From Cytophagales bacterium (GTDB lineage Bacteria; Bacteroidota; Bacteroidia; Cytophagales; Cyclobacteriaceae), in assembly GCA_017303805.1 (NCBI GenBank), contig JAFLBQ010000004.1, forward strand, positions 248,001 through 312,000: 64,000 nucleotides of DNA, in the 5' to 3' direction. How positions within the stretch are numbered: the stretch's first letter is position 1; each line of letters begins with the position of its first letter. Under the pieces are notes generated by a model that ran no database searches, was not told the origin of the DNA, and worked only from the letters and a program-made list of their open reading frames with translations. Positions 4,127 to 64,000 of the stretch are shown one piece after another. The position numbers and the translations under genes were made by a program.

Positions 4127-5381
4127 CCAGGCTTTGTTTAGAATTGTTAAATACACCCACCGCCTTTCCCGTAAGCTTTTGGCCTACCCACGGTGAGTTT
4201 TTCGATTTTGAGAAATTTACGTCCGGACTGAAAGTCCATTCGCAGGTTGGATCGAACAGGGTAAGGTTTGCCTTAGTGTCCACATCTATTATGACCGAAG
4301 CCAGATTAAGCAGCTTGCGTGGGGCATCCGTAATTTTTTCAATCAGCTCGGCCAAATCAATTTCCTGGGCCAATGCTGCTACCTGAGCTGCAAATGTCTG
4401 CAGGTTAATTACGCCAAACTCGGCCTGGTCAAACTCCAGAAATTTACTCTCATCGTCTTGCGGGGCATGGTTGCTTACAAGTATATCAATGGTGCCATCT
4501 TTTAACCCCTTCACCAGTGCATCCTGGTCGGTCTTTTCGCGAAGCGGAGGATTTACTTTGAAGTTTGTATCAAAATCACCCAGGGCGCTATCGTTAAGCA
4601 ACGGTTGGTACGCGGCAATATCGCACGTTACCTGCAGGCCTTTCTTTTTTGCAGCCCGAACCAGGTCTATCGATTTTGCAGTAGATAATTTACTTAGGTG
4701 CAACCTGCCACCGGCATAGGCCAGCAACTCCAGATTTTTTAAAAGGGCTACTTCTTCGGCAATACGCGGCATGCCCTTTAACCCCAGGCGCGTGCTTTGT
4801 ACCCCCTCGTGCATTTGACCAAATAAATTTAGCCACGTGTCTTCGGGGTGATCGATGAGTACGGCATTAAACTTTTGCAGGTATTGCAAGGCTTTCAGAA
4901 AAATATCGGTATGCCACACAGGCTTAAGGCCATCGGTAAAAGCCAGGGCCCCGGCCTGCTGCAAGTCTATCATTTCTGTAAGCTCCTCACCTTTACAGTT
5001 TTTGGTAACGGCAGCCAATGCATGAATTTGCACCAACCTGTTAGTGTTGTTGGCGGTAAGGTAGCTGATTTCGTTTTTGGTTTGTACCGTGGGTTGCGTG
5101 TTGGGTAGTACTGCTACTTCGGTAAAGCCACCGGCCGAAGCCGCTTTTGCAAGTGACTGTAAATCTTCTTTTTGCTCGTGTCCCGGGTCGCCCACACTGG
5201 CACCAAGGTCCACCCAGCCGGCCGAAAGAATCATGCCGGCTGCATCAATTACCCGATCGGCTGAGTAATTCTTTTCACCGATTTCGGCAATGCGCCCATT
5301 GTGCAGCAACACGTTGCGGGTTTTAAGATGAAAGGGCGAACCTTTGGAAATTATCTTGGCCGATTGGATCAGGAGTTTCAT
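4119..5381 (-). CDS. Dihydroorotase-like protein, probably non-catalytic
   Basis: 420-residue amidohydrolase-fold protein of the class I dihydroorotase family (allantoinase/DHOase type). True DHOases bind two zinc ions through a D-x-H-x-H-x-R motif near residue 60 and a late Asp in 'TDHAPH'. Here the first motif is D58-L-G-A-S-V-G-D-P-G, with both His and the Arg lost, and the late site is S303-N304-H-A-P-Q, with Asp changed to Asn. 'HLSKLST' and 'DHPED' remain. Catalysis is therefore unlikely. In other bacteria, inactive DHOase homologues (PyrX/pDHO) support aspartate carbamoyltransferase; that role is an inference here. Bacteroidota often carry this paralogue alongside an active PyrC. It is first in an operon with two DUF4199 proteins and a GT2 enzyme. 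Confidence 0.88.
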   Translation of the reverse strand: MKLLIQSAKIISKGSPFHLKTRNVLLHNGRIAEIGEKNYSADRVIDAAGMILSAGWVDLGASVGDPGHEQKEDLQSLAKAASAGGFTEVAVLPNTQPTVQTKNEISYLTANNTNRLVQIHALAAVTKNCKGEELTEMIDLQQAGALAFTDGLKPVWHTDIFLKALQYLQKFNAVLIDHPEDTWLNLFGQMHEGVQSTRLGLKGMPRIAEEVALLKNLELLAYAGGRLHLSKLSTAKSIDLVRAAKKKGLQVTCDIAAYQPLLNDSALGDFDTNFKVNPPLREKTDQDALVKGLKDGTIDILVSNHAPQDDESKFLEFDQAEFGVINLQTFAAQVAALAQEIDLAELIEKITDAPRKLLNLASVIIDVDTKANLTLFDPTCEWTFSPDVNFSKSKNSPWVGQKLTGKAVGVFNNSKQSLDV

Positions 5382-5444
5382 GAGTTAGGGATTGATCGGC
5401 TGGTTAGGTTGAAAATCTCTTTCGCACAACATTATCAGTATGCA

Positions 5445-5484
5445 AAGTAACTCCTCAAAGTGTTATAATGCTATGGAGTTACTT
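5445..5484. repeat. Stem-loop at the end of the BatA gene
   Basis: AAGTAACTCC (5445-5454) and GGAGTTACTT (5475-5484) form a perfect 10-bp stem with a 20-nt loop. It spans the stop codon of the BatA-domain gene and sits in the 97-bp gap before the dihydroorotase-like gene, both on the minus strand. The tail on the minus strand is only TTTGC, so it is a poor intrinsic terminator. It may stabilise an mRNA end or attenuate read-through. Confidence 0.5.
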
Positions 5485-7443
5485 CAAAAATCTTATCAAC
5501 AGTATCTCTGTCAACAAAAAGGCCAAGGCCAGAAGCAGTGCGTATTTCCACAATGGTGTGCCTAAATACCGGGCTTTTAATTCGGTGCTAAACGTTTCGG
5601 GCGTGGCCGCATCAAAAACAGAAACATGGGCGCCCGCAAAATACTGCGGTAGCTCAGCTGGTGCAACGGTTGTAAGATCCGATTCGGCCTTCTCCAGGTT
5701 AAAGGCTACCAGGTCCAGGGTATCGCGTTGATGTGTAATTGCGTAAAATCCGGGCCGCACTTCGTAGCGCGGCAATTCCAAAAGTATTCTTTTGGGCAGC
5801 CTGCGCTGCACCGGCACCAGTTCCTGTTCGCCCTTCATGCGCACCGGTTCAGCACCACTAAGGCTATCGGCAAAAACGGTAACCAATGCATTGGAGAGGT
5901 AATGGTAGGGCTTACGATCTTGCCGGTTGCCTGCGGCCGCTAACCTATACATAACCGGCACAAACAAGGCGTGCGAAGCAAAGTCGGTTTCGCGGTTCAA
6001 ACCACTTGCGGCTATATAAACCGTAGCAAAGCGCGAGAGAAAGGGTTGGCCGTTTTGAAAAGAAAGAATAGCAGAGCGATCGGGGCCCCAGCCCCAAACC
6101 GGTTGGGCCGAGGGCATGGCCATAGTGGCCGATTTCTCCTCGAACACATTTTCAAAAAATGGATTTTGATAGTCGGGCTTATCGAGCACCATGCGCGTGG
6201 CATTTTGCACACGGGCCAATGCGGGCAGGCGCAACAGATTTTGGTAAGAAGCAACGTCTGGTTCGCTGCCGGGAAAAACAAGCAGCAAACCCTGGTTGCT
6301 CAGGTAGTTTTGCAAGGCCGCTGCCAGCGCGGCATCTACCCGGTTAACACCATTTAAGATTAACAGGTTTGCATCTTGAAATGCTCCGAAATCTACATTG
6401 GCGGTAGTATAACTTTTAAAATCAAATAATTGCCGGTTGCCATATACTTGCTCCACATAGGTAATGCCCGGCTCTGGTTTAATTTCTACAATGCGCAAGC
6501 GGCCCGCATAGTTGAGCGTAAAATAAAATTCATTATCAAAGCTTATGGGGAAATCTGTAAAACTGAAAACGGCTTTATTGTTGCCGCGCAGGCCGGCAGA
6601 AAGATCGAATGTGGTTTCTACCGAGCTGTTGGGTTGAAGCGTTACCGAGGAGGTTGCCACCTGAATGTTATTTATGGAAAGCCGGGTTACTAAACCTTCA
6701 ACAGCGCGCGGCCCTTTGTTGCGTAGTTTTACCCGAAGCGAATTGCGCTCGCCACCAATGCGAAAGGGGTTGGCCAGGTACACCGAATCTACAAACACGT
6801 TCGAAACCGGGGCCAGCCCCACAGGGGCTAACTGTAACTGCCAGGCCGAATCGAGTACCAACGCATCGCCCAACGTAGCTTGTTGGAAATCTGAGATCCA
6901 AAATACAGAGCCGGGTTGTTCTATTCTTCTTATCACCTCGCTGGCTTTGCGTGCCACTGACGAAAACCGAACTTGAGCCAGTTGATCCAGAATTTCTGAT
7001 TTAGATTTGAACGTGTTGGAGAAGGGAGCAAAATCGTTGGTGAGCAATTTGAACCGGGTTTCGGCTGGAAACAGCGTTACAATTTCGCGTGCAAATGCAG
7101 TGGCCGCCTCTAACCCCCGCAACTTGTCTTGCACCGGAGCCGACATGCTGTAAGAGTTATCGAGGTATAGGGTAATATTTTTCTGTTCTGCAAATTGTTG
7201 GGTAGCCGGCCGAAAGGGTTGTGCAAAAGCCATCACCAAAAAAAACAAAAACAACAGGCGGCTGGCTAAAATCAAATAGCGCTTTAGCCTGCGTTGCTGA
7301 ATGGTTTCCTGCTTTACCTGTTGCAATAACCTTGTGTTCGAAAAAAACAGGCGGGTAGTTCTTTTAAAATTAAAGAGGTGAATGATTACCGGAATGGCAA
7401 GCGCAGCAAGCGCCCAAAGAAATTGCGGATAGCTAAAACTCAT
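5479..7443 (-). CDS. BatA-domain membrane protein with vWA-like region
   Basis: 654 residues. The N-terminus 'MSFSYPQFLWALAALAIPVIIHLFNFKRTTRLFFSNT' plus a second TM ('RYLILASRLLFLFFLVMAFAQP') is the BatA / double-TM domain (PF07584). Next comes a von Willebrand A-like segment with 'LYLDNSYSM', a DxSxS-like metal site, then beta-rich extracytoplasmic repeats and a final TM helix ('YALLLALAFLLTEILLI'). Such proteins occur with MoxR/Bat systems, but no moxR, batB or batC is nearby. The ATG at 7443 was chosen because the double-TM domain starts there; an in-frame codon at 7488 adds 15 atypical residues. The 136-bp upstream gap holds only a small hairpin (ATAGCC-GCG-GGCTAT). Confidence 0.85.
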   Translation of the reverse strand: MSFSYPQFLWALAALAIPVIIHLFNFKRTTRLFFSNTRLLQQVKQETIQQRRLKRYLILASRLLFLFFLVMAFAQPFRPATQQFAEQKNITLYLDNSYSMSAPVQDKLRGLEAATAFAREIVTLFPAETRFKLLTNDFAPFSNTFKSKSEILDQLAQVRFSSVARKASEVIRRIEQPGSVFWISDFQQATLGDALVLDSAWQLQLAPVGLAPVSNVFVDSVYLANPFRIGGERNSLRVKLRNKGPRAVEGLVTRLSINNIQVATSSVTLQPNSSVETTFDLSAGLRGNNKAVFSFTDFPISFDNEFYFTLNYAGRLRIVEIKPEPGITYVEQVYGNRQLFDFKSYTTANVDFGAFQDANLLILNGVNRVDAALAAALQNYLSNQGLLLVFPGSEPDVASYQNLLRLPALARVQNATRMVLDKPDYQNPFFENVFEEKSATMAMPSAQPVWGWGPDRSAILSFQNGQPFLSRFATVYIAASGLNRETDFASHALFVPVMYRLAAAGNRQDRKPYHYLSNALVTVFADSLSGAEPVRMKGEQELVPVQRRLPKRILLELPRYEVRPGFYAITHQRDTLDLVAFNLEKAESDLTTVAPAELPQYFAGAHVSVFDAATPETFSTELKARYLGTPLWKYALLLALAFLLTEILLIRFLK

Positions 7444-57323: not shown

Positions 57324-58514
57324 CTATCTTCTTGTAATCTCAATCTCCACCCGGTCGTTATACTGGCCAAGGGTTCCGCCCTCCGGATACAGTGGGATTT
57401 TTCCACCTTCACCCCGGGTATCAATTCGGGAGGACTCAATACCTTGACTTACCAGGTATGCTTTTACCGTTGCGGCTCGTTCGCTGGTCAACTCTTTAGC
57501 GGAAAATTTACCAATCTTATTTTTGCCTGGCTCTAGCGCAAAAAAGTTGGTGCTCGTTCCGAGTATCGAACCCTCCTTCACCTGATTGCCATTGCAATGG
57601 CCATGGATCCGGATTTTGTAGCCAGGAGATTCTTTCATCAAATCCACAAGGCCATCCAATTCGTTTTGGGCAGCGGGCTCAAGAATTGCAGAGTTCCTAA
57701 AAAACCGTACGTTGGTAAAGTCGATATAATCCCCGCGTTTTACTTTGCTTACTTCAATTTGAATAATATGTTCCCCATCGGCCCCGGTTTGTGGGCTGGG
57801 TTCGCTATAGTTTAAAATCATACTTACAGGTTGATAGCCCGCGGCTTGCGTAATAACTACATAGTTACCGCGCGAATTTTTCGGTGCCTCCAGGTAAATA
57901 AGTTCGTTGGCCTTGTGTACTTCGTAGCGGGTTGCATTGGTTGATTCCTGCACGTGCACCTCACCGGTAACCGCCTTGCCATCGGTGGTTTCTATTTTAA
58001 ACACAAAGGGTTTACCGGCAGGTTTTTTCACTTCCGGTTTGGGTTCGGGTTTAACTTCAACCGGCTTTTCTTCAATGGGTTTTTCAATTGGCTTTTCTTC
58101 TACCGGCTTTTCTACAATGGGTTTTTCTATCGGTTTTTCAACAACAGGTTTTTCCTCAATTGGCTTTACCTCTACCCGGGGCCCGGTAATAAACTGGCCT
58201 TCACCCAACTGCCCTGTAAACACCCAGGCATCTTTGTACTCAGACTCCGCTCGCAGCCGGATAACAAATGCATAGGCTTTTCGCTTTTCGGCCGATTCAA
58301 ACAAATAAACGTAGTTCCAATGGTTTTTTGGGTTAATGGCATACTGCGCATTAAAACCTTTTTGGTTGGCCTGGTTAGTAAAGCGAACGGCATTATCCAG
58401 TTTCGCAAACACACCAATTACAACATAATACGTAGGCTCAGTTTGGGCATGAACAGCAGAAAAACTGCCTGCAACAAAAAGCAATAAGAAGAGGGCTCGT
58501 TGGGATAATCGCAT
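57324..58514 (-). CDS. SPOR-like/OmpA envelope protein, paralogue 1
   Basis: 396 residues. Signal peptide 'MRLSQRALFLLLFVAGSFSAVHAQ'. Residues ~28-105 are a SPOR-like fold ('YYVVIGVFAKLDNAVRFTNQANQKGFNAQY'). Next is a Pro/Glu/Lys-rich repeat (EKP units, ~115-170) that may span the wall, then a carboxypeptidase-regulatory-like beta domain and a C-terminal OmpA peptidoglycan-binding domain ('YKIRIHGHCNGNQ', 'SAKELTSERAATVKAYLVSQGI', 'RGEGG'). Such proteins tie the outer membrane to peptidoglycan. It is a tandem paralogue of the next gene and ends at a strong terminator. Confidence 0.85.
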   Translation of the reverse strand: MRLSQRALFLLLFVAGSFSAVHAQTEPTYYVVIGVFAKLDNAVRFTNQANQKGFNAQYAINPKNHWNYVYLFESAEKRKAYAFVIRLRAESEYKDAWVFTGQLGEGQFITGPRVEVKPIEEKPVVEKPIEKPIVEKPVEEKPIEKPIEEKPVEVKPEPKPEVKKPAGKPFVFKIETTDGKAVTGEVHVQESTNATRYEVHKANELIYLEAPKNSRGNYVVITQAAGYQPVSMILNYSEPSPQTGADGEHIIQIEVSKVKRGDYIDFTNVRFFRNSAILEPAAQNELDGLVDLMKESPGYKIRIHGHCNGNQVKEGSILGTSTNFFALEPGKNKIGKFSAKELTSERAATVKAYLVSQGIESSRIDTRGEGGKIPLYPEGGTLGQYNDRVEIEITRR

Positions 58515-58610
58515 AACTCCAGGTTAGGAATAGCCACCAAGTTAATAATTTATGCGGGTAAACCGCAAAATTTTTGTTTTTTGACGGTCTTATCCTTCCT
58601 AAGGAAGTGT

Positions 58611-59819
58611 TCAATCTTCCAGAATTTCAATTTCTACCCGCACATTAGCATGGGCTGCCGGATGATCTACATCGTAAATTGGCTGGTTGCCTCCCCAAGC
58701 CTTTACCTGAATCCGGTTGGCAGCAATTTTATTTTCAATCAGAAACTGCTTTAACAAAATAGCCCGCTCCTCCGATAGTTTTTTGGCAGAACCCCGGCCT
58801 TCTTTATTATCGGTAGTAAGTTGAAAAAAGTTCTTGCTGGACCCCATCGAGATAATTTTGCCGCCCGCATTGCCATTGGTATGGCCGTGAATCATAATCT
58901 TGTAATTGGGATTTTCATTCATCATTTCCAGCAAACTGTTTACCTCGTACCGCGATTCGGGGCGCATGATTGCCGCATCTTTATAGAAATAAACATTGAA
59001 CATAATGGCCTTATCTCCTTTCTGAAGTCGCACCAACTCGAATGGTACCGTTACCAAATCGCCCTTAAGGGTTACGCCCTCGGTACTATCGGGTTTATTA
59101 AAGTTTAAGGGCAGTTGCAATTTGCGGTAGCCAAATACTTCGCACTCCAACAGCATCTTGCCCGACTTATTAATCGATTTTACCTGCACCACATCATTGC
59201 CCCGGTACGTTGCCGCCTTGCGCTTTTTGGAAATACCATCCGCATCAAACACATCCACATCACCCGCCAGGGTATCCTTGTCTGCCAGTGCAGTAATCCT
59301 GAATAAAAAAGATCTGACCCCTGCTTTTTCAGCGCTGGATGCTGCCGGGGTGGGTTTCTCAACCGGCTCTTGTAGTTTGGTCTCCGTTTCGTTAGAGGTG
59401 GTGGCTGCTATAGCAACTTCCGTTTTGCCTTCCGGCTTTTTGTCTTCCAGCTTATTAATAACCTCTTTTCGTTCGGCTTCGGTTATCCGCACCACCTGGG
59501 GGTTATCGCCCAACAAACCCTGGTACACCCAGGTATCAGGAAAGGGAGACTGCTTTTGCAATCGAACCGCTTCTGCTACTGCTGCTTTGCGATCTTCTGT
59601 ATGGAGCACGTACACATAGAAAAGTTTTCGCTTCGGGTTTAATTCAAACCGGGCAGCATACCCTTGCTTAGTTGCGTTTTCGGTAAACTCAATGGCGTTG
59701 CGTGGCACGCCAAAGGCTCCAATTACCACGTATAAAGATTGATCGGTGTGCGGTTTGTCTTGAGCACCTAGAAATTGAGTGCCAACCAAAAGAAAAGTAA
59801 GGAGTGTGAGGAGGCGCAT
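58611..59819 (-). CDS. SPOR-like/OmpA envelope protein, paralogue 2
   Basis: 402 residues with the same order as its neighbour: signal peptide 'MRLLTLLTFLLVGTQFLGAQ', SPOR-like domain ('LYVVIGAFGVPRNAIEFTENATKQGYAARFELNPKRKLFYVYVL'), a linker with Glu/Lys/Thr in place of the EKP repeat, a beta domain, and OmpA ('YKIMIHGHTNGNAGG', 'SAKKLSEERAILLKQFLIENKI'). It differs mainly in the linker, so the two may set different distances to the wall. The gap to the paralogue is 96 bp and no promoter is clear. PbpC, a cell-wall synthase, is the next gene upstream on the strand. Confidence 0.85.
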   Translation of the reverse strand: MRLLTLLTFLLVGTQFLGAQDKPHTDQSLYVVIGAFGVPRNAIEFTENATKQGYAARFELNPKRKLFYVYVLHTEDRKAAVAEAVRLQKQSPFPDTWVYQGLLGDNPQVVRITEAERKEVINKLEDKKPEGKTEVAIAATTSNETETKLQEPVEKPTPAASSAEKAGVRSFLFRITALADKDTLAGDVDVFDADGISKKRKAATYRGNDVVQVKSINKSGKMLLECEVFGYRKLQLPLNFNKPDSTEGVTLKGDLVTVPFELVRLQKGDKAIMFNVYFYKDAAIMRPESRYEVNSLLEMMNENPNYKIMIHGHTNGNAGGKIISMGSSKNFFQLTTDNKEGRGSAKKLSEERAILLKQFLIENKIAANRIQVKAWGGNQPIYDVDHPAAHANVRVEIEILED

Positions 59820-59975: not shown

Positions 59976-62324
59976 TTACTGTACTGTGAACATAAGGTCC
60001 ACTGTATTTCCATCTTCATCCAGCAGCAACAACGAATGGCTTCCTGCCTGCGGGGTTACTGCCAACTTATGCGAGCCCGCTGTAGTACCTATAAACTCTT
60101 TGTCCAAGTGCCAGTAGATAGTGGCTCGTGCATTTCGGTGTGTTGCCTGCAACAAGACCTGCCCCGGTGTGCCGTCTAACTCGCGGGGTATAAATATCCG
60201 CGCATAGTTGGTAGGGTAAATTATTTCCATGCTGGCTACTGTTAGCGGCTGTTCGCAGTTGCGTTTAAATGCGGGCATTGGTTTGTAACTAATATTTTTT
60301 GTTTTGAAGTAATACTCCTGCACAGGGGGCAATACAAACCACGGCTGTGTTTTTATTTGCGATACCGGCTCGCACCCACTGTGTACCTGATAGCGGCCAT
60401 CGGCTGAAAGGTGTAACAGCTTATGGTATTTGCACACCCCGCTTTGCAAACCCTTTTCTGTTACCCATTGTGTTTCGGCTTGCGGGCACCATTCTGAAAT
60501 GCGCATGCCGCTCTGGCTACACACGCCTACCGCATGTAGTTCCTGCTGTGGTTTTAAAAACCAGGCATTGCCTGGCAGATAATTAAAGATCTCGAACAGC
60601 AAGGGCGCGGCAGCCTCGGTGCCAGTTAACCCCGGGCGACCCTCCCCATCGGCATTGCCAACCCAAACCCCAACTGCATACTGGCCATTAACACCAATGG
60701 CCCATGCATCGCGCAAGCCATGGCTGGTGCCGGTTTTCCAGGCTATTTGCTTGGAGGTATGAAACAAGCGCCAGCCGGTTTCTTCTCCTGGTCTGAAAAC
60801 TTCCTGTAGGGCATCGAAGGTTTGGTACAGCGCTCCGGCTGATAGCCATGATGTTGCTTCAGTATTTTTATAAAGCAACGAGTCGCGCTGTTGGTAATGT
60901 GGTGGATGAAAATCTTTCCGGTTGTACCGCACGGTGCCAGCCGAAGAAAAGTAATTGGTAAGTGTGCGGGCCATCGATGCATACACTCCGGTAATTTCCC
61001 ACAAGGTACCTTCGGCTCCACCCAATATGAGAGACAACCCGTAATGATCGGCCGGCTGCGGAAGCGTAGTAATTCCAATATGTTTCAATAAGTCATAAAA
61101 CTTTTCGTAGCGGTAATCGCGCAATTGGTGAACAGCCGGAATATTGAGCGATCGGATAAGTGCCTGATTGGCCGGCACCGCGCCATCATACTGCTTACTG
61201 AAATTGCGTGGTGCAAATCCGTTGATAACCGTGGGCACATCGGGTTGTAAGGTGGCCGGCAAAATTTTTCCTTCATCCAGCAACGCAGCAAAGAGTATCG
61301 GTTTCAAAATACTCCCGGTGCTTCTGCGCGCCATAACTAAATCTACCGACTCGTTGTGAGCAACTCCGGCTGGCGTGTTACCCACATAAGCCAGCACGTT
61401 ACCGGTTTTAATATCCAACACGAGTGCGGCCGCATTAAATACCTGATTGCCTTTTAAACGCTCATGATGATATTTCACTACTTGCTGCACGTGTTCCTGC
61501 AAGGGGCCATCAACGGAAGAGAAAATACGCGTACCGGCCCGGCCATCTTTAACTGTGCGTAAGAGCAAATGCGGGGCTGCCTGCGGTAATGGTACCGGTT
61601 GCCCGGGTATTGCTTCGGCAATGGAAAGTTCGTAAGTAAGAGAATCAATGGCCTGGGTTTGCAACAGCCGGCCCAACAACCGATCGCGCTTTTGTTTTAG
61701 TGCCGCTCTGTTTTTTCCTGGATGGATTAGTGCCGGATTGTTGGGTAACACCGCAAGCAACGCTGCCTCAGCCCAACTCAATTCTTCCACATCGCGACCA
61801 AAGTATCGCCAGCAGGCAGCTTCCAGTCCTACTACATTTCCACCAAACGGAGCATGCGCTGCATACAAAGCCAAAATCTCTTCTTTGGAATACCGGAATT
61901 CAAGCCGCGTGGCCAACACCATTTCGATCACCTTCTCAAAATAAGTTCGCGGTTTATCTTTACGTGCAAGGCGAATTACCTGCATGGAGAGGGTGCTGCC
62001 CCCACTGCTGATTTTTCCAGCGTTAAAATTTTGTCGTATTGCACGGGCAAGTGCGCGAACATCCACACCGGGATGCGAATAAAAACGTTTGTCTTCAAAA
62101 AGCACCAAAGCAGTTTTGTAATTCTCGGGTATAACATTTCCTTCCGGAAAACGCCACTGACCATCGGGGGCAATGGTAGCCCCAAGCAGTTTTTGGTTGC
62201 GGTCTTCTAATACTGTAGAATAGGAGTTAACGAAAAGCAATGTGGGCAATGAAAAATAGTAACCCACCAGAAGTAAAATCAGTGCCGGGCCTGCATACCA
62301 GTATTTGCGAGCGAGCCTCCGCAT
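59976..62324 (-). CDS. pbpC: Penicillin-binding protein 1C
   Basis: 782 residues. A short TM anchor ('YWYAGPALILLLVGYYFS') leads to a GT51 transglycosylase ('LFEDKRFYSHPGVDVRALARAI', 'SSGGSTLSMQVIRLARK') and a penicillin-binding transpeptidase ('RRSTGSILKPILFAALLDEG' with SxxK, 'WKTGTSHGLRDAWAIGV'). The last ~90 residues are the BiPBP_C domain of PBP1C ('YPTNYARIFIPRELDGTPG...'). It polymerises and cross-links peptidoglycan. ATG 62324 is used; a GTG at 62330 is in frame. It starts within 7 bp of the upstream stop, so it is co-transcribed with the SecA-like gene. Confidence 0.92.
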   Translation of the reverse strand: MRRLARKYWYAGPALILLLVGYYFSLPTLLFVNSYSTVLEDRNQKLLGATIAPDGQWRFPEGNVIPENYKTALVLFEDKRFYSHPGVDVRALARAIRQNFNAGKISSGGSTLSMQVIRLARKDKPRTYFEKVIEMVLATRLEFRYSKEEILALYAAHAPFGGNVVGLEAACWRYFGRDVEELSWAEAALLAVLPNNPALIHPGKNRAALKQKRDRLLGRLLQTQAIDSLTYELSIAEAIPGQPVPLPQAAPHLLLRTVKDGRAGTRIFSSVDGPLQEHVQQVVKYHHERLKGNQVFNAAALVLDIKTGNVLAYVGNTPAGVAHNESVDLVMARRSTGSILKPILFAALLDEGKILPATLQPDVPTVINGFAPRNFSKQYDGAVPANQALIRSLNIPAVHQLRDYRYEKFYDLLKHIGITTLPQPADHYGLSLILGGAEGTLWEITGVYASMARTLTNYFSSAGTVRYNRKDFHPPHYQQRDSLLYKNTEATSWLSAGALYQTFDALQEVFRPGEETGWRLFHTSKQIAWKTGTSHGLRDAWAIGVNGQYAVGVWVGNADGEGRPGLTGTEAAAPLLFEIFNYLPGNAWFLKPQQELHAVGVCSQSGMRISEWCPQAETQWVTEKGLQSGVCKYHKLLHLSADGRYQVHSGCEPVSQIKTQPWFVLPPVQEYYFKTKNISYKPMPAFKRNCEQPLTVASMEIIYPTNYARIFIPRELDGTPGQVLLQATHRNARATIYWHLDKEFIGTTAGSHKLAVTPQAGSHSLLLLDEDGNTVDLMFTVQ

Positions 62325-62330
62325 GGCCAC

Positions 62331-62945
62331 TTACTTCGAATTTATGTTCTTTAAAAACCAGCCTTCCTCAGAAGTAGCAGGTATTTCATTTCGTACCATG
62401 CGCTCCACTTTTTCGCGGGCCTGTTGCATCGAACGGGTAACGATGGGATGTTCAATGGCTTCGTCTTCCTTCATCCCTAACTTATCTAAAATTCCAATCA
62501 GGCGTTCCCCACTGAACATCTTAAAAGCAGGTTCGTCCAGCGAAGAGTAAAATACCAGCGAAGCCGAAGGAACAATCTTCTTTATTTTTTGAAGGTACTC
62601 ATTCTCTTTTTTGGGAAGCGGGTAATGCCCGAATAAAAAAATGGCTACCGTTTGATTTGCCAACGCTAAAGGGAATTCATTTGTAGCTGAAGCATACAAC
62701 ACTACACCTTCTTGTGGCTGCATGCTGTAATCGCGCAGAGCCATTGCCGGCACGCCTTTACCCGCAAGGAATTTTGTGATCTGTTGCAACTCGTCTTCAA
62801 AAAAACAGATTACTACCGGAACCTGCTTCCTGGTAATGGCTACCAAGGCATCGGTAATCATGCCTTGCAATGCGTATTCAGTCGTTCGCCAAACCCGGTC
62901 GGTGTAAACCGGTTTTGAAGATTTGAATAAAGAAAATAGACCCAT
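62331..62945 (-). CDS. Solo SecA-NBD2-like protein, no motor motifs
   Basis: 204 residues with no annotated family that I can name, but the whole length follows the second nucleotide-binding domain and HSD start of SecA. 'DRVWRTTEYALQGMITDALVAITRKQVPVVICF' matches the NBD2 entry (Y-K-T, then PVLV). 'SASLVFYSSLDEPAFKMFSGERLIGILDKLGM' (127-158) matches SecA 'SSQFYLSLEDDLMRLFGSERI..VMDRLG', and 'EAIEHPIVTRSMQQAREKVE' (163-181) matches 'EVIQHSMITKSIERAQKKVE'. The helicase motifs V and VI (GRGTD, QxxGRxGR) that should lie between are absent. It lies just before pbpC and may bind envelope or Sec components; the role is unknown. Confidence 0.75.
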   Translation of the reverse strand: MGLFSLFKSSKPVYTDRVWRTTEYALQGMITDALVAITRKQVPVVICFFEDELQQITKFLAGKGVPAMALRDYSMQPQEGVVLYASATNEFPLALANQTVAIFLFGHYPLPKKENEYLQKIKKIVPSASLVFYSSLDEPAFKMFSGERLIGILDKLGMKEDEAIEHPIVTRSMQQAREKVERMVRNEIPATSEEGWFLKNINSK

Positions 62946-62951
62946 AAGATT

Positions 62952-64000
62952 TTAATAAAGAAACCCAAACAACCAGAGTGGAATCTTATTTAAAGACCCT
63001 ATTTCTAAATCATCAGAAACCACATAAGAGAATTTATTCTTTTCAAGTTGACTAAATTTTTTATCCTTCCCGCCCACTTCAAAAAAGTATTTTTCATCTA
63101 CATAAAAATCGGTTTTGGGTGGAAGCGACACATGATGGCCTGCATTTCGTATCTGATTTAAAAAGAATGATTCCCTCAGCGTTCCCGCATTTGCCTTCTC
63201 CGGTGAAAGCACAATATGCAGGTTAGTATTTTCTAAGAATATCTTATCAGGTTTCTGCAAGGTACTAGTGCTCTTACCCGCTGCTGTAAGTGAGTTAACC
63301 AACCTGGCCTTTTCAAGATAATATAGGTATTGAACCAATGTGTTGCGATGAACTCCTATTTTTTCGCTTAGCTTGGTTACATTAGGTTTAAAAGGAACAT
63401 TGGTGGCCAACACGTAAAGTAATTGATAAACTTTTCTGCTATTGGTCTGATCAAACCCTTCAATAAATCGTAGGTCGTTTTCTATTATCAGTTTAACCAC
63501 CTGCTCTAACCTGATAGCATAGGTATTAAGGTTCTCCGCAAAAAAAGGGTAATATCCATTCTTCCAATATTCTGGAAGAAATTTTAAGGGCTTAAACTGA
63601 GAGGTTAGTTCAGCCGCAATTTCATAATGATTCTTAATCAACTCCGGCAACCGGATGACTGGAGTTTTACTTATCTCCAAAAATTGTAAATACTCACGAA
63701 AAGATAAACCCGGAAGCTCATATTGCACTGCTCTTCTACTAAGGTCGGCATGCTGGCGAAGCATGTCCATAATGGAAGAACCCGTAAATACTATGCGCAG
63801 TTCTTTATGAAAATCGTAGATATTTTTAATTTCCTGAGCCCATCCCGGATATTTGTGCACCTCATCAATAAACAGTGCTTTGCCACCCTGCTGCTGAAAT
63901 TCTTTTGCAAAATCAACCAGTCGATTTTCTGTAAAATAAATATCATCTAACGTGATGTAAGCTGCTTCTTGCTTTAAACCATACAAGCTTTTTTGCCTTT
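62952..64000 (-). CDS. AAA+ ATPase with DUF4143 domain (5' end cut off)
   Basis: The frame is open to the right edge, so the N-terminus with the Walker A motif lies outside; about 349 residues are seen. 'GKALFIDEVHKYPGWAQEIKNIYDF' is the Walker B region (FIDEVH) and 'RIVFTGSSIMDMLRQHADLSRRAVQYELPGLSFREYL' the sensor and arginine segment of archaeal-type DUF4143 ATPases. The C-terminal third is the DUF4143 nuclease-like domain, ending 'FSYVVSDDLEIGSLNKIPLWLFGFLY'. Such solitary ATPases are common as accessory genes of unknown role, possibly toxin-antitoxin or transposon-linked. It ends 7 bp before the SecA-like gene start and may share its transcript. Confidence 0.85.
   Translation of the reverse strand, partial: RQKSLYGLKQEAAYITLDDIYFTENRLVDFAKEFQQQGGKALFIDEVHKYPGWAQEIKNIYDFHKELRIVFTGSSIMDMLRQHADLSRRAVQYELPGLSFREYLQFLEISKTPVIRLPELIKNHYEIAAELTSQFKPLKFLPEYWKNGYYPFFAENLNTYAIRLEQVVKLIIENDLRFIEGFDQTNSRKVYQLLYVLATNVPFKPNVTKLSEKIGVHRNTLVQYLYYLEKARLVNSLTAAGKSTSTLQKPDKIFLENTNLHIVLSPEKANAGTLRESFFLNQIRNAGHHVSLPPKTDFYVDEKYFFEVGGKDKKFSQLEKNKFSYVVSDDLEIGSLNKIPLWLFGFLY

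Follow-up and report, generated by a model that had tools for sequence, protein, structure and literature searches.

A stand-alone protein family derived from nucleotide-binding domain 2 of SecA in Bacteroidota and Planctomycetota

The 64,000-nucleotide stretch of contig JAFLBQ010000004.1 from a Cytophagales bacterium (Cyclobacteriaceae), hereafter the window, encodes a protein of 204 residues, P0001, which is derived from nucleotide-binding domain 2 (NBD2) of the export motor SecA and is homologous to it across NBD2 into the start of the helical scaffold. We are all but certain that P0001 belongs to a family of single origin, about 175–220 residues long, that consists of SecA NBD2 and its joint with the scaffold, has lost the motor parts and has gained a C-terminal tail. 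Our best explanation adds to this identity a motor-dead module acting at the Sec machinery or the membrane, and we give the whole, identity and mechanism together, a probability of roughly 0.4; the mechanism by itself is a tentative proposal.

An open reading frame (ORF) at this place had been proposed by an earlier sequence-only reading, and the ORF stands with its strand corrected to minus (62945..62331); the plus strand carries nine stops over the interval, and the frame is open on the minus strand only. As a single sequence, P0001 is matched by the SecA models of NCBIfam with E values of 1.2e-9 to 3.8e-8, over residues ~128–183 only and with scores of 32–37 bits against cut-offs of 800–1493. 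A search of the PDB at E<=10 returned 21 distinct sequences, all of them SecA or SecA2 (best 7.9e-9), again over residues ~128–183 only. The gathering cut-off of the Pfam model P-loop_SecA (PF21090) is missed by P0001 (16.2 vs 27 bits); members L041 and L049 score 25.1 and 22.7 bits, and at E<=0.01 the model matches 12 of 19 family members. The homology extends further when the family is used as a profile. With hhalign, columns 16–187 align to SecA with a probability of 99.5, an alignment that spans NBD2 in full and reaches the opening turns of the scaffold helix, and most of the listed Bacteroidota SecA rows match profile positions 13–188. SecA accounted for 24 of the 25 matches in a PDB-wide profile search, and it was the best structural match of two AlphaFold models made without SecA rows. 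The next-nearest structures are mostly the second domains of SF2 helicases and translocases, as the fold predicts, a list that excludes no family.

The resemblance to SecA NBD2 claimed by the sequence-only reading is thus above chance in the NCBIfam, PDB, hhalign and AlphaFold comparisons, and no other Rossmann family scored above SecA in the profile and structure searches that were run. The SecA models of NCBIfam match all 19 members searched, and no model of the family's own was found for these 19 in Pfam, NCBIfam, PADLOC or PHROGs. An 806-position PHROG profile of unknown function, probably SecA-like by the position of the match, is hit at the joint by 18 of the 19. Two further matches, in one member each, are marginal (PADLOC PDC-M01B, 0.0034; Pfam FIST, 0.0084).

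An alignment of 50 family members with 32 SecA sequences, in which columns conserved in at least 70% of SecA were counted, separates P0001 into parts of very different retention (Table 1). The joint is the best kept, with 15 of 24 SecA-conserved columns retained. The core before it keeps 8 of 47 columns over residues 13–98 and 2 of 24 over residues 99–128, the former motif VI, where the SecA-invariant residues are replaced in the family consensus and a conserved proline forms the centre of a rebuilt face (P109 in 48 of 50 members; L110 in 40). None of the 10 SecA-conserved columns is kept in the tail, which instead has residues of its own: W196 in 50/50, N200 in 47/50 and S192 in 46/50, all three present in P0001. 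The tail counts refer to 50 of the 55 non-redundant rows, the dropped ones being fragments or frameshifted (L113 twice, L110, L112 and L037).

The missing parts listed by the sequence-only reading were confirmed by reading P0001. For NBD1 (SecA_DEAD) there is no Pfam match in P0001 up to an E value of 1, nor in the 19 members up to 0.01. Motif V (GRGTD) and motif VI (QxxGRxGR) are absent from the sequence, and the PPXD, the wing and the two-helix finger are absent too, P0001 ending ~20 residues past the joint.

At the N-terminus, a hydrophobic [LIVFMW]F[GSK] motif is found in 50 of 54 family members and in 21 of 475 neighbouring ORFs, a comparison that is not an independent test, as the sequences share ancestry and each start was set to the Met closest to where its alignment begins, which favours a shared motif. 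Planctomycetota members have [LIVF]FG in 5/5 of the set and resemble SecA N-termini such as MLLNLLTKVFGSRN; residues 1–12 of P0001 are a possible analogue of the SecA N-terminus. Residues 1–10 have a low predicted local distance difference test score (pLDDT).

Table 1. P0001, its parts and its neighbours in the window.
Feature	Coordinates	Strand	Basis or remark
Stand-alone SecA-NBD2-like protein P0001, 204 residues	62331..62945	minus	ORF, SecA matches and predicted fold
N-terminal residues 1–12 (MGLFSLFKSSKP)	62910..62945	minus	[LIVFMW]F[GSK] motif, family alignment
Residues 13–128, RecA2-like NBD2 core without motor motifs	62562..62909	minus	Alignment, model
Residues 129–183, NBD2-to-scaffold joint	62397..62561	minus	Best retained part
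Residues 184–204, family-specific tail	62334..62396	minus	S192, W196, N200; absent in SecA
Penicillin-binding protein 1C (pbpC)	59976..62330	minus	Directly downstream; NCBIfam PBP_1c 2.1e-210
AAA_14/DUF4143 ATPase	62952..63998	minus	Directly upstream; cut by window end; 398 residues in L164

Phylogenetic analysis (LG+G4, one run) placed the 50 family members in one clade against the 32 SecA sequences, with an ultrafast bootstrap (UFBoot) of 100 and a stem branch of 1.31; the five Planctomycetota members group together with a support of 93. The SecA rows had been hand-picked for spread from 141 GRGTD-bearing long matches (143 long in all). Among seven close members, the ratio of nonsynonymous to synonymous substitution rates (dN/dS) is 0.05–0.27 in the 14 of 21 pairs with a computable dS. 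As dS is near saturation, the plainer sign of purifying selection is that third-position differences (0.48–0.67) exceed second-position differences (0.09–0.33) in 21/21 pairs. The stand-alone NBD2-like family is under purifying selection.

These results bear directly on the proposal of the sequence-only reading that P0001 is a decayed SecA module. A functionless fragment in decay would agree with the loss of all motor motifs, with the internal stops in 2 of 28 genus members (L134 and L144, both draft genomes) and with the frameshift look of L037. The stops and the frameshift may be real or assembly errors, and the frame is open in the other 26 of the 28. Monophyly at UFBoot 100 with one old origin, purifying selection and the invariant residues of the new C-terminal motif contradict decay, which we reject as scarcely credible. 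The frameshift in L037, likewise a draft genome, probably lies at the end of the gene (5001–5612).

Counts of the stand-alone gene in other genomes are of listed matches, the unlisted rows scoring below the full-length members seen; the genome samples overlap, and each includes its own genome or centre where sampled. The sample centres G339 (Planctomycetota) and G340 were chosen as gene-bearing and are included in their counts. In the same genus the gene is present in 28 of 58 genomes, with one 86-residue fragment in addition, and in the same family in 8 of 98 (single-sequence search). Among the matches listed it is present in 17 of 194 genomes of the order (once in two pieces), 8 of 395 of the class, 6 of 296 of the phylum and 4 of 199 of Planctomycetota; in the Chitinophagaceae-type family of G340 it is found in 10 of 79. 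No stand-alone member is among the matches listed for 249 Pseudomonadota genomes. None of the 33 plasmid and 5 phage records matched covers 80% of P0001, and the annotated plasmid and phage matches among those listed are SecA (13 plasmid records lie outside the listing). The gene is therefore conserved well beyond the source genome, is scattered patchily over Bacteroidota and Planctomycetota, and is accessory. The 28 genus genomes that carry it are larger than the other 30 (median 4.35 vs 3.55 Mb, p 3e-5), a comparison in which completeness is uncontrolled and missing data may explain part.

The position of the gene beside pbpC, read by the sequence-only reading as an operon link, holds in the source genome and in part of the genus and fails as a general linkage. 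Taking the longest-ORF start, the gap between the P0001 gene and pbpC is 0 nucleotides. Of 20 genus regions fetched from the 28 gene-bearing genomes, 12 have pbpC no more than three ORFs downstream, and 9 of these 12 have it immediately after the SecA-like gene, at a distance of -23 to 19 nucleotides. Of the other three, L165 also has pbpC next in line but 233 nucleotides away, L151 has an opposite-strand ORF in between, and in L162 two ORFs, one a desaturase, intervene. On the upstream side, 6 of the 12 linked regions have a gene of the ArsC cluster immediately adjacent (gap -1 to 3 nucleotides), and in another 3 the AAA gene stands between it and the SecA-like gene. Co-transcription with pbpC is likely in this linked clade.

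Such an arrangement could point to a regulator or partner of cell-wall synthesis working with PBP1C, the wall-related role raised by the sequence-only reading. PBP1C acts outside the cytoplasm, whereas P0001 has no signal peptide by eye. No member of the pbpC cluster (c2) occurs in any of the 20 regions fetched outside the genus (family and order) or at L040, L041 and L049, and pbpC is absent nearby in 8 of the 20 genus regions. On the regions fetched we therefore reject a general pbpC link, and a partnership with PBP1C is improbable.

The AAA_14/DUF4143 gene stands between the ArsC-family and SecA-like genes in 3 of the 20 genus regions (L147, L151 and L164) and looks as if inserted at this junction; it is also present in L034 and L039, which duplicate records of this set, and absent from the other 17 regions. 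Beyond pbpC, the window encodes on the minus strand two tandem OmpA+SPOR proteins of 402 and 396 residues (57324–59819, Pfam); in most linked relatives, too, homologues (cluster c1) come after pbpC.

In other lineages the neighbours change. A urocanase gene is downstream in 4/4 contexts of families f101 and f107, at a few nucleotides or overlapping in L264, L265 and L266 and at 226 nucleotides in L261; the call is from Pfam for L264 and L265 and by eye for L261 and L266. A DUF5522 mini-gene lies upstream of the SecA-like gene in L265 and, by eye, in L266. A histidine kinase (cluster c6) is the next ORF in L158, L159, L170 and L178 and next but one in L160 and L163, and L258 has a separate histidine-kinase neighbour; since kinases form a large family, their recurrence is not counted as evidence. 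Further neighbours are an SDR, a 2-oxoacid dehydrogenase E1, NadE, an acyl-CoA oxidase, GH97, DUF2911, proline dehydrogenase, thiolase and others. Seven of the ~50 neighbouring ORFs compared with Pfam have no match, one of them (L192) being an overlapping spurious frame.

One of the changing neighbours, uvrA, is treated as no more than a lead. A divergent uvrA paralogue adjoins the gene in 5 of 8 Chitinophagaceae-type loci (L188, L253, L255, L256 and L257; in L253 a 61-residue ORF intervenes), the other uvrA paralogue stands beside the divergent SecA-like gene in G151 (L177), and a UvrA-like gene is found past two intervening genes in L171. With the sub-threshold matches of P0001 to UvrB_inter (Pfam, 0.065) and mfd (NCBIfam, 0.032), this might indicate a tie to nucleotide excision repair. 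The idea is post hoc and draws on two different paralogues in different lineages, and by a back-of-envelope estimate ~0.7 coincidences of this kind among small gene families are expected over the ~33 contexts seen. The shared SF2 fold explains the sub-threshold matches, and most members, P0001 included, are not near uvrA, which makes a repair function very improbable. The UvrA-like protein of L171 (9521–14278) has 1585 residues and two UvrA DNA-binding matches; the UvrA of L177 has 949.

In the mechanism that we tentatively favour, the P0001 family would not hydrolyse ATP and would act by binding through the retained joint surface. The partner could be SecA itself, SecYEG or a membrane face, and the short hydrophobic N-terminus may help keep the protein near the membrane. 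It would modulate the Sec export motor, or serve as its decoy, in an accessory and non-essential capacity. In its most specific form, which we regard as unlikely, the protein would be a trans-acting mimic that docks at the site of SecA's own NBD2 and tunes or pauses export, the tail capping the surface that NBD1 or the PPXD covers in SecA.

Passages of one study of SecA (PMC6599042) provide the structural background. Nucleotide is bound at the NBD1–NBD2 interface, and the clamp forms by rotation of the PPXD towards NBD2. In crystal 2IBM the clamp holds a stretch of NBD2 from an adjacent molecule. Lipid contacts of B. subtilis SecA are given there as R553, R576 and K583 (PMC6599042). At an offset of 405 these correspond to R148, R171 and E178 of P0001, which keeps the charge in the first two only, and the three positions are basic in 36, 27 and 13 of the 50 family members.

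Several observations weigh against a Sec-linked role. The position of K583 is basic in 32/32 SecA sequences and in only 13/50 members, which leaves the lipid-contact mapping weak. The hydrophobic moment of the family N-termini is not raised (median 0.31 vs 0.34 for the 475 neighbouring ORFs, p 0.58), so that an amphipathic N-terminal helix is unsupported. As described in the same passages, the translocating polypeptide is not contacted by NBD2 in the SecA–SecY structure (PMC6599042), and a substrate-binding role is thus unsupported. None of the ~50 neighbouring ORFs matches a Sec family (Pfam, E<=0.001), the patchy distribution implies that the function is dispensable, and the joint may have been retained just for the fold.

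The alternative is exaptation of the NBD2 fold to a task unrelated to export, for example regulating a lineage-specific pathway in the cytosol or serving as its adaptor, with the likeness to SecA reflecting only origin and fold. Neighbours that vary by clade (pbpC, urocanase, uvrA, E1 dehydrogenase, NadE, acyl-CoA oxidase) and include no Sec family agree with this, the long stem branch and the new invariant tail suggest a changed role, and the motif-VI face has been rebuilt around P109. Free exaptation would not obviously keep the joint, which is the best conserved and still SecA-recognisable part. We put this alternative just short of an even chance; as a class it is likelier than a Sec-linked role, but it names no mechanism. 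The regulator or adaptor role of the sequence-only reading thus finds no general support on the side of wall synthesis, the pbpC link being clade-specific, and is possible on the side of export.

If the family does bind the Sec machinery, it would represent a type of export regulator absent from the libraries and papers searched. If it does not, half of a two-domain motor has been turned into a separate protein under selection. Searches of the open-licence PubMed Central (PMC) literature listed no paper on a stand-alone NBD2-like relative of SecA, which leaves room for a published description elsewhere.

Compared with SecA, P0001 shares the fold and is detectably homologous from NBD2 to the opening turns of the scaffold, and it has an N-terminus and a tail of its own. 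On NBD1, the PPXD and motifs V and VI the family falls outside SecA, on NBD2 and the joint within it; the wing and the two-helix finger are likewise lacking, and its 204 residues stand against an open frame of 1118 codons for the SecA of the source genome. SecA2, the accessory SecA (e.g. 6sxh, 4uaq), has a homologous NBD2 and is a complete ATPase motor, unlike P0001. YecA/AscA and YchJ are, like P0001, small separate proteins with one SecA module, and the parts of PMC8076867 used here propose a role of YecA in Sec-dependent export. Their module is the C-terminal metal-binding domain of SecA (PMC8076867), whereas that of P0001 is NBD2; P0001 has one cysteine in 204 residues and no Pfam match to such a domain. 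A further parallel may be drawn with the secondary SecA_DEAD proteins, which passages of PMC4452313 describe from Planctomycetes, Verrucomicrobia and others, beside type I secretion genes. They are likewise divergent, reduced extra relatives of SecA, also present in Planctomycetes, which keep NBD1 and have lost the wing and scaffold wholly or partly (PMC4452313), the converse of the P0001 family. While the known reduced SecA relatives that we found keep the DEAD motor domain or the metal-binding domain only, in the P0001 family NBD2 and the joint are all that is kept.
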